This document shows, piece after piece, positions 60,275 through 61,602 of a stretch of 64,000 nt of DNA. The DNA is taken from positions 1 to 64,000 of the forward strand of contig WGLW01000044.1 in the NCBI GenBank assembly GCA_016125405.1, given 5' to 3'. Origin of the DNA: Alphaproteobacteria bacterium. Its GTDB lineage: Bacteria > Pseudomonadota > Alphaproteobacteria > Caulobacterales > Hyphomonadaceae. The notes beneath the pieces are model-generated. The model was not told where the DNA came from. It made no database searches and saw only the letters and a program-made list of their open reading frames with translations. How positions within the stretch are numbered: position 1 is the stretch's first letter; each line of letters begins with the position of its first letter. A program made the position numbers and the translations under genes.

Positions 60275-60293
60275 TAGGGTTACCCCTGTAATT
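60275..60293. promoter_or_regulatory. GC-rich inverted repeat upstream of luxR (element A)
   Basis: TAGGGTTACCCCTGTAATT lies 36 bp before the luxR-type ATG. It shares a TAGGG...ACCCCTG core with element B (61125), 850 bp away on the other side of the gene. A second partner, GGGGT at 60294, extends the symmetry to ACCCC-N8-GGGGT (60282-60299). Likely an operator, possibly for the adjacent regulator; the binding protein is not shown. Confidence 0.5.
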
Positions 60294-60328: not shown

Positions 60329-61066
60329 ATGTCTTTGGCCGAGAACGTGCTGTCATTCGCCAATCAGGCGCCGCTGATGCCGAACAAGAAGGCGCTCGGC
60401 AACGCATTGCTCAGCCTGATCGAGCCGATCGGGGCGGCGCGTTACGCCTGCCTCTACCTGCGCCGGGCGCCGGGCGGCTATCTGATCGAGCGCTCCATCG
60501 CCAACGTCCCGCCAACCTTCCAGGAAGCCTATCTCGAGCGTGGCTATGACTCCGCTGATCCGATCTTCCAGGGCGCCGTGAGGGCGGGGGCTTTCGGATA
60601 CTGGAGCGAGCAGATCCGCAACGTCACGCTCGACCGGGGCGGCCGCGAAGTGATGGGGATCGCCAGCGAGCACAACATGCACGACGGGTTCACCAAGCGG
60701 GTGATGCTCGATAATGGCGGGATCGCCGTGATGATGGTGGCCGGCCGCGAACTTGACCGCAGCGAGCGGACGCGCGCGGCCCTGCGCATGACATTCGACG
60801 TTTTCGCCAATGAGGGAACCCGGTTGCTGCAGATGTCGGGCGAGCCGCACGGCGCGACCCTGCGGGGGGAAACCCTTCTCTCCCGCACCCAGCTGCGCGT
60901 CCTGCTGATGCGGGCGCAGGGCTTGTCGAACAAGGAAATCGCCAACCTGATGGACCGCCGGGAAAAGACGGTTGAGTGCCACATCACCGAAATCCTGCGC
61001 CGGCTTGAGGCCCGCAACATGATCGACGCGATCCGCATCGCGACGCTTCAGAAAGTCATTGTCTGA
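60329..61066 (+). CDS. LuxR-family regulator with autoinducer-binding domain (LuxR solo)
   Basis: A 245-residue quorum-sensing-type regulator. Residues 20-165 form an autoinducer-binding domain with the conserved Tyr68, Asp77-Pro78 (ADPIF), Trp92 and Gly120. The position of TraR Trp57 appears to be Phe64, which would alter the signal pocket. The C-terminal GerE-like HTH is at about residues 183-240 (LSRTQLRVLLMRAQGLSNKEIANLMDRREKTVECHI). No luxI-type synthase is adjacent, so it is a solo. Elements A and B flank it. It follows aroB by 70 bp. Confidence 0.88.
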   Translation: MSLAENVLSFANQAPLMPNKKALGNALLSLIEPIGAARYACLYLRRAPGGYLIERSIANVPPTFQEAYLERGYDSADPIFQGAVRAGAFGYWSEQIRNVTLDRGGREVMGIASEHNMHDGFTKRVMLDNGGIAVMMVAGRELDRSERTRAALRMTFDVFANEGTRLLQMSGEPHGATLRGETLLSRTQLRVLLMRAQGLSNKEIANLMDRREKTVECHITEILRRLEARNMIDAIRIATLQKVIV

Positions 61067-61124
61067 GACGGGGTCTGAGGCGGGGGCCAGTGCTGTGGAA
61101 AAATCCGGCTGGCGAACTGCTCTT

Positions 61125-61143
61125 TAGGGGCAACCCCTGATTT
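61125..61143. promoter_or_regulatory. GC-rich inverted repeat (element B)
   Basis: TAGGGGCAACCCCTGATTT contains the perfect arms AGGGG-CAA-CCCCT. It shares TAGGG...ACCCCTG with element A and stands 40 bp before the ATG of a 19-codon frame, close to the 36 bp spacing of element A to the luxR ATG. Confidence 0.5.
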
Positions 61144-61159
61144 ACCAAACGAGTATGCC

Positions 61160-61280
61160 CTAGGAAATTGTATGCAAGGGGGATGGCCATAACGGCTCAG
61201 CTCTGGGCGACGAGGCGGCTTCAAAAGAGGCCGCCTTGTTGATTCTGGCGCCAGATTCCGGGGCGCTGAGTGCCCCGGGT
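61160..61280 (+). ncRNA. Candidate short structured transcript downstream of luxR
   Basis: The 240 bp between the luxR solo and bolA hold a compact set of structures on the plus strand. They are stem AGGCGGC/GCCGCCT (61213-61236), perfect palindrome TCTGGCGCCAGA (61245-61256) and stem CCGGGGC/GCCCCGG (61258-61278). Element B lies upstream. The last stem also could terminate bolA on the other strand. Whether an sRNA is made is inference; the boundaries are estimates. Confidence 0.35.
61183..61242 (+). CDS. Possible 19-residue micro-ORF
   Basis: An ATG seven bases behind AAGGGGG opens a 19-codon frame (MAITAQLWATRRLQKRPPC). Its last nine codons fall inside the AGGCGGC/GCCGCCT stem, and the stop lies just past it, so translation would open the hairpin. 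It could be a leader peptide or a signalling peptide, or a chance frame. Too short for any family call. Confidence 0.3.
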   Translation: MAITAQLWATRRLQKRPPC

Positions 61281-61309: not shown

Positions 61310-61579
61310 TCAATCTGTCCGGATCGACAGGGCGTGAAGGCCGGTCGCGAACTCTTCCGCCAGGGCCTCATTGATCGCGCGATGTTTCGCCACACGCGAG
61401 AGTCCGGCCATGGAAGCAGCTCTTATATGGATCGAGAAATGCGTCTCTCCGCCCGGGGCTGCGCCAGCATGGCCGGCGTGGAGGGCCGACTCATCGACAA
61501 TTTCCAGCGCCTCGGGCGAAAAAGCTGCCGTAAGGGCTGCCTTCATGCGTTCGGCGCGGTTTGTCAATTCTTGTGGCAT
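61310..61579 (-). CDS. BolA family protein
   Basis: An 89-residue BolA-like protein that with monothiol glutaredoxin binds a 2Fe-2S cluster and acts in iron regulation. LTNRAERMKAALTAAFSPEALEIVDES is the N-terminal helix-strand part; GGETHFSIHI and GLSRVAKHRAINEALAEEFATGLHALSI are the conserved core with the His of the cluster site. Start at 61579 behind GCGGGAG; an ATG at 61591 is an alternative. Divergent from the J-domain gene, 23 bp apart. Confidence 0.93.
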   Translation of the reverse strand: MPQELTNRAERMKAALTAAFSPEALEIVDESALHAGHAGAAPGGETHFSIHIRAASMAGLSRVAKHRAINEALAEEFATGLHALSIRTD

Positions 61580-61602
61580 TAACTCCCGCATCCCATGATT
61601 GC

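Follow-up and report, generated by a model that had tools for sequence, protein, structure and literature searches.

A predicted small RNA gene beside a LuxR-type regulator gene in Hyphomonadaceae, and its possible role as a sponge of C-rich-loop sRNAs

In Vibrio, the gene for VqmA, a regulator with a LuxR-type HTH that senses DPO through its PAS domain, lies beside the gene for the sRNA VqmR, which VqmA activates; VqmR pairs with mRNAs, and we know of no sponge role for it. Two sponges, CrfA and QrrX, are further points of comparison for the locus described here. In the parts of the source that we draw on, CrfA of Caulobacter crescentus is described as a sponge of the four sibling alphaR8 sRNAs SisA-D, which is induced by carbon starvation and loses its effect on targets in a strain without the SisA-D copies; the SisA-D core, UUUCCUCCCU, is single-stranded, and sisA adjoins an N-formylglutamate amidohydrolase gene (PMC12559287). 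Likewise, QrrX of Vibrio cholerae, according to the sections of its report covered here, is a quorum-sensing sponge of the Qrr sRNAs and is encoded beside its activator QrrT (PMC9732341). No sponge controlled by a LuxR-type regulator was among the best-ranked matches of our literature search, which had most subscription journals and preprints outside its scope, and a term search found neither 'sRNA' nor 'small RNA' in the text of a review of LuxR solos (PMC10134790).

Here, we describe a stretch of DNA between a LuxR-type regulator gene (hereafter luxR) and bolA which, judging from a comparison of related genomes, is most likely an sRNA gene of about 75 nt, designated sRNA1 (Table 1). It lies in the window, by which we mean the whole stretch of 64,000 nucleotides that was analysed, and whose source we take to belong to the same order of bacteria as Caulobacter, the host of CrfA. 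The luxR product matches the Pfam domains Autoind_bind (PF03472, E 2.9e-16) and GerE (PF00196, E 1.5e-13), the pair by which we recognize an AHL-type LuxR protein, and its best solved relatives are RhlR variants and CviR. Orthologs at E<=1e-40 occur in 11/105 family genomes, the window's own genome counted, namely in nine of the 15 genomes within the genus and in one genome in each of two other genera; a sample of 398 genomes from the order gave no ortholog in further genera at E<=1e-35. Comparing the LuxR query with the genome contigs gave only two distant relatives, which were left unused. Upstream of luxR, the window has a GGGN4CCC dyad that is possibly an autoregulatory site; an exact dyad of this kind precedes two of the 11 orthologs, the window's being one of them.

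The comparison rests on 11 orthologous luxR-bolA gaps, those of the window and of ten further genomes, from three genera. In all 11, luxR is followed by a GGGN4CCC dyad, then by a CUGGG block 69-85 nt further on and finally by a terminator hairpin. A dyad and a CUGGG block at that spacing appear in only 0-2% of dinucleotide shuffles per region, as opposed to 11/11 observed; like all counts across related genomes in this study, the latter is not phylogenetically independent. The hairpin is the first of three structured elements in the original prediction, which had proposed to look for covariation in orthologous intergenic regions, and this covariation is indeed found: in the eight relatives counted, the hairpin is conserved, 95.5% of cells are paired and both sides have changed in 5/14 pairs. 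In the window, the segment 61169-61252 folds with -39.2 kcal/mol (z -3.4), and 0/200 shuffles were equally good. The other two elements, a palindrome and a GC stem, are present as claimed, but they fall outside the conserved unit in the alignment of nine sequences from the same genus; neither of the two (61244-61278) is seen in the relatives aligned, and they possibly form an element of the 3' end of bolA.

A covariance model (R1) built from 8/11 loci recovered the three loci that were held out in a search of 111 kb: the window (61123-61243, E 1.6e-5), L007 (6.3e-6) and L022 (8e-5). In L026, the same search returned a match that adjoins luxI and covers the terminator only (E 0.0013); six further matches were weaker, from E 0.065 up. 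Over the 105 family genomes, R1 gave 19 matches, nine of full length, all of them at luxR, and ten to the terminator end only; the window's own genome and G008, which are positive when their gaps are read directly, were not among them, and the filters of such a scan are tightened once more than 40 genomes are searched. Sequence and structure of sRNA1 are conserved in orthologous gaps beyond chance, which is what we ask of an sRNA gene. This comparative evidence, covariation included, backs the small regulatory RNA that the original prediction had considered, and we find it very probable that an sRNA gene is conserved alongside luxR.

Between luxR and sRNA1 lie a lux-box-like dyad and a -10-like sequence, TAGGAAAT. 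From the dyad centre (61132) to the -10-like sequence (61161) it is 29 nt, as would be expected of a class II LuxR-type promoter, and because of this spacing we place the start of sRNA1 near 61172. A similar TAG-containing stretch occupies the -10-like position in some relatives; a consensus scan of the window yielded no sigma-70 promoter and no U-rich terminator. We infer that sRNA1 is transcribed from this start and that LuxR binds to the dyad, and we consider control of sRNA1 by LuxR, neither the upstream dyad nor the linkage to luxR having been mentioned in the original prediction, to be rather probable. As a genome-wide marker of a regulon, the dyad had to be discarded: in its own genome, AGGGNNNNCCCTGNT with one mismatch occurs at background level (159 places vs 166 for the reversed control), and AGGGKYAACCCYGAT with one mismatch occurs at 12 places in nine genomes (control 5), two of them at sRNA1.

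Table 1. Features of the luxR-bolA region, in window coordinates
Feature	Position	Strand	Remarks
GGGN4CCC dyad before luxR	60277..60286	.	About 50 nt upstream; possible autoregulatory site
LuxR-type regulator gene (luxR)	60329..61066	+	Upstream neighbour of sRNA1, presumed activator
Lux-box-like dyad AGGGG-CAA-CCCCT	61126..61138	.	Presumed LuxR site for sRNA1
-10-like TAGGAAAT	61161..61168	+	29 nt past dyad centre; seen in sequence
Predicted small RNA gene sRNA1	61172..61243	+	5' end inferred, +/- about 5 nt; held-out covariance-model match
Block A GGGGGATGG	61178..61186	+	GGGGGACGGGC in G002; complementary to 5' half of sRNA2 loop
Micro-ORF	61183..61242	+	ATG, 19 codons; judged incidental
Block B GCTCTGGG	61200..61207	+	GCCCTGGGTTG in five relatives; complementary to 3' half of sRNA2 loop
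Terminator hairpin of sRNA1	61209..61240	+	First stem of the original prediction; 14-bp arms 61209-61222 / 61227-61240; fold and covariation
Palindrome TCTGGCGCCAGA	61244..61255	.	12 bp, perfect; not conserved
GC stem-loop between sRNA1 and bolA	61258..61278	.	7-bp stem 61258-61264 / 61272-61278; not conserved
bolA	61310..61591	-	Convergent neighbour; PF01722 E 1.5e-24

The complement of block B (CAACCCAGGGC) has 26 matches in five genomes, compared with three for the reversed pattern. Five of these lie at sRNA1 loci, and 13 of the other 21 represent, by reading, a second small RNA, which we call sRNA2 and in which a hairpin with a C-rich loop is followed by a terminator hairpin. The loop is near-invariant, reading GUCCCCCCAACCCA or close to it, and in the loop region, GCCCGUCCCCC-CAACCCAGGGC, the first half is the reverse complement of the G002 block A (GGGGGACGGGC) and the second half that of the G002 block B (GCCCUGGGUUG). 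The search used block B only, and yet the exact complement of block A stands beside the searched block in 8/13 sRNA2 matches and, with one mismatch, in three more. Among 13 members that were selected to be diverse and of equal length, six of the nine pairs of the outer stem covary, with 27 cells changed on both sides (0/500 shuffles).

At E<0.01, the sRNA2 model finds this family in all 15 genus genomes, five of which had supplied the model. Elsewhere among the 40 genomes searched, it is found in G092 and G101, the only two from outside the genus that carry this luxR together with sRNA1, and in two of 23 other family genomes (G047 and G048), with no match at this threshold in the remaining 21. 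sRNA2 also occurs in six genomes of the genus that lack this luxR, and therefore has other roles. A known RNA can be ruled out for either sRNA as far as Rfam 15 extends: the window has no match at the gathering score, and a search at E up to 1 of ten sources in which sRNA1 or sRNA2 is encoded gave only ctRNA_p42d on L165, with 29.9 bits below its cut-off of 50. The literature search, most subscription journals and preprints lying outside its scope, met the loop motif in eight papers, none of which deals with bacterial sRNAs to judge by its title. In both the window's genome (L128) and G047 (L134), an sRNA2 copy adjoins an FtsJ/S4-domain gene, and in G002 (L101 / L157; contig 23, about 98,846-98,915) a copy follows a luxR-paired luxI at a distance of a few hundred bases.

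Because blocks A and B are complementary to both halves of the exposed sRNA2 loop, the most likely reading of sRNA1 is that of a sponge. The LuxR-type regulator would activate sRNA1 from the dyad, about 42 nt before the sRNA1 start, and the transcript, carrying the conserved G-rich blocks A and B and then an intrinsic terminator, would pair through these blocks with the two halves of the loop. With LuxR active, sRNA1 would sequester sRNA2, and mRNAs that sRNA2 blocks at their ribosome sites would be freed. An orphan luxI is one likely target, the derepression of which would close a positive loop. Pairing in cells and the direction of this regulation are what we infer from the complementarity, and we give about an even chance to the proposal that sRNA1 is a LuxR-controlled sponge of sRNA2, relieving targets such as luxI.

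In the relatives, the complementarity is evident from comparison. Runs of at least 7 nt against the 5' half of the loop, followed by at least 8 nt against the 3' half, are present in 5/11 sRNA1 when a fixed window is used for the search and in 6/11 when the same rule is applied with a sliding one (G001, G002, G004, G006, G007 and G009). The loop-complementary runs of these six are 7-11 and 10-11 nt long. With sRNA loci masked, the same rule is satisfied in 0/64,268 control windows; before the sRNA1 loci that were fetched later had been masked, the figure was 12/60,138. Cofolding of sRNA1 with one sRNA2 copy from its own genome ranks at <=0.01 against shuffles in 4/11 genomes (G001, G004, G006 and G013), is marginal in G002, G007 and G092 (0.07-0.12), and is no better than shuffles in the window's genome G000 (0.52) and in G008, G009 and G101 (0.58-0.83). 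The whole-body duplex energy, which is not better than that of shuffles in 10/11 genomes, is uninformative, because the body is G-rich and shuffled versions of it bind the C-rich loop as well. Furthermore, one sRNA2 is unable to pair with both A and B as a simple duplex because the blocks are in crossing order.

The pairing in the window consists of GGGGGAUGG and GCUCUGGG, each with one wobble pair: against the loop, block A forms a run of 9 nt with one G-U, of which 6 nt remain with Watson-Crick pairs only, and block B a run of 8 nt with one G-U, of which 5 nt remain. A compensating sRNA2 loop (CCCAGAG) for the altered block B, which we had predicted for the window's genome, does not exist, as its one strong sRNA2 copy has the standard loop. 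For the genus, the chances of a sponge function appear evenly balanced; in the window's species, the pairing blocks are partly decayed, so that the chances are lower and the role is weaker or may be lost.

The strongest competitor accepts the LuxR-controlled sRNA, a unit that is itself well supported, but lets it act by direct pairing with mRNAs or on a protein, with its likeness to the sRNA2 complement due to shared ancestry or arising as a by-product of G/C-rich hairpins. That pairing with sRNA2 is energetically not significant in several genomes, the window's included, speaks for this view. It does not readily account, however, for an sRNA2 loop that matches both conserved blocks although the search had started from just one of them, nor for an arrangement of A and B that is absent from all of the masked control windows; in addition, G-rich seeds are, as a matter of general knowledge, unusual for mRNA targeting. 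Taken together, we consider an sRNA without a sponge function unlikely.

If sRNA1 is indeed a sponge, luxI is one likely target. Two luxI genes are present in the window's genome, both of them away from this luxR; the second (L025, G000 contig 20) lies, by eye, beside frames that resemble LuxR-type and LysR-type regulators. Within the genus, luxI is found in 8/9 luxR genomes vs 0/6 others (p 0.0014), and within the family in 10/11 vs 26/94 (p 7e-5), neither comparison being phylogenetically independent. The genus genome with luxR and sRNA1 in which no luxI was found (G013) also has, in L003, an sRNA1 whose block A match is the shortest of all, at 4 nt. An orphan luxI is common to eight genus genomes; when the starts are picked by hand, 6/8 of its leaders show complementarity to the sRNA2 loop over 7 nt or more, no further than 20 nt from the ATG. 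A mechanical rule that admits any of the first three starts likewise finds loop matches in 6/8 luxI vs 9/295 leaders, and the strictest rule, with the first start only, in 3/8 vs 5/295, where the 295 control leaders include luxI and luxR copies and three of the five are luxR or luxI. The duplex energy of the luxI leaders does not stand out from that of their own shuffles (p 0.13-0.82). Complementarity to the sRNA2 loop over 7 nt or more is also seen around the ribosome site of luxR in two genomes, in the leaders L032 (G007) and L033 (G009).

Two other connections between this locus and luxI were rejected. If sRNA1 and the luxI leader are paired directly, the duplex is no better than shuffles in 7/8 cases (0.11-0.675), with 0.035 in G002, and a shared box is not apparent, as the sole exact GGGN4CCC within 700 nt before the eight orphan luxI genes (less in L061) is that of G007. 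By eye, a CAAC-N5-GTTG dyad stands upstream of the luxI ATG, at a distance of about 60-110 nt, in most of the eight loci L026 and L059-L065; it differs from the sRNA1 box and may serve another regulator. The complete scheme, in which an AHL circuit would be closed at the RNA level, with a stand-alone LuxR turning on a two-site sponge that takes the multicopy C-loop sRNAs off the ribosome sites of a distant orphan luxI and other mRNAs, we put forward as a tentative possibility only. If true, a rise in density would increase the output of the signal itself, with no need for LuxR at the luxI promoter.

The conserved unit could also be nothing but the 3' end of the luxR transcript, with a conserved terminator, perhaps shared with bolA, and no separate sRNA. 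Its position directly after luxR and before the convergent bolA would fit, as would a covarying hairpin that looks like a terminator. A terminator, however, leaves unexplained why the dyad and the CUGGG block recur at similar spacing in all 11 gaps, and why relatives show complementarity to sRNA2, which makes this account quite improbable in our judgement; a sponge derived from the 3'UTR, on the other hand, is possible.

The original prediction had started from a micro-ORF. An ATG ORF of 19 codons that ends in a stem is present; the first base of its stop codon closes the 3' arm of the 14-bp hairpin. Contrary to what had been claimed, the ribosome site is not well placed, because AAGGGGG (61176-61182) abuts the ATG without a spacer. 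As to chance, the two strands of the 64-kb window together contain 265 ORFs that start with ATG and have 15-30 codons, and for 16 of these there is an SD-like purine run within 15 nt. An ORF with the same start place and an end in the hairpin was found in 0/10 orthologous regions; in L022, the most distant ortholog, a 49-codon ATG ORF in the same frame covers part of the stretch. Given the abutting SD and an ORF that is not kept in relatives, we judge the micro-ORF to be incidental, most likely a coincidence. The doubt already voiced about an attenuator was justified: bolA, on the minus strand, is convergent, and the locus has no conserved short ORF before a regulated gene on the same strand. 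A leader-peptide switch, leader-peptide attenuator or expressed micro-protein, for which the ATG ORF with its purine run in the window and the longer same-frame ORF of L022 might be cited, is thus extremely improbable and can be set aside, given that the nine closer orthologs have no counterpart, that the SD abuts the ATG, that 16 short ORFs of the window carry such runs and that the strand has no downstream gene ahead of bolA.

Like the VqmA-VqmR pair, luxR and sRNA1 combine the gene for a regulator with a LuxR-type HTH with an adjoining sRNA gene. A further parallel, as far as the covered sections of its report go, is QrrX-QrrT, where the sponge gene adjoins the activator gene and a promoter element is conserved, although QrrT is of the LysR type and the Qrr sRNAs are Vibrio RNAs, whereas the regulator considered here is of the LuxR/AHL type, its activation of sRNA1 is proposed, and luxI is the proposed target (PMC9732341). 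CrfA and SisA-D resemble sRNA1 and sRNA2, as predicted here, in that a small RNA antagonizes multicopy sibling sRNAs with an anti-Shine-Dalgarno core, and the principle that we propose for sRNA1 and sRNA2 is that of CrfA, in which a G/A-rich stem loop is complementary to a C-rich core (PMC12559287, parts covered). There are also differences: the text covered contains no tie of CrfA to a luxR gene, and sRNA2 presents GUCCCCCCAACCCA in a hairpin loop instead of the single-stranded UUUCCUCCCU core of SisA-D, and so does not have the alphaR8 core as described in those parts (PMC12559287). Likewise, none of ten ORFs neighbouring nine sRNA2 loci encodes an N-formylglutamate amidohydrolase according to Pfam (0/10; two of the ORFs without a Pfam match). 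With its near-invariant loop, sRNA2 constitutes a Hyphomonadaceae family absent from Rfam 15 and offers base pairs that are directly testable, and its pairing with sRNA1 may tie cell-to-cell signalling to RNA-level control, suggesting a wiring between luxR and luxI genes that are located far apart. According to the sections covered, the sponges CrfA and QrrX were both found by RNA-interactome mapping (PMC12559287, PMC9732341); the sRNA1 candidate was found by comparison alone and would link a sponge of an sRNA family to an AHL-type regulator.
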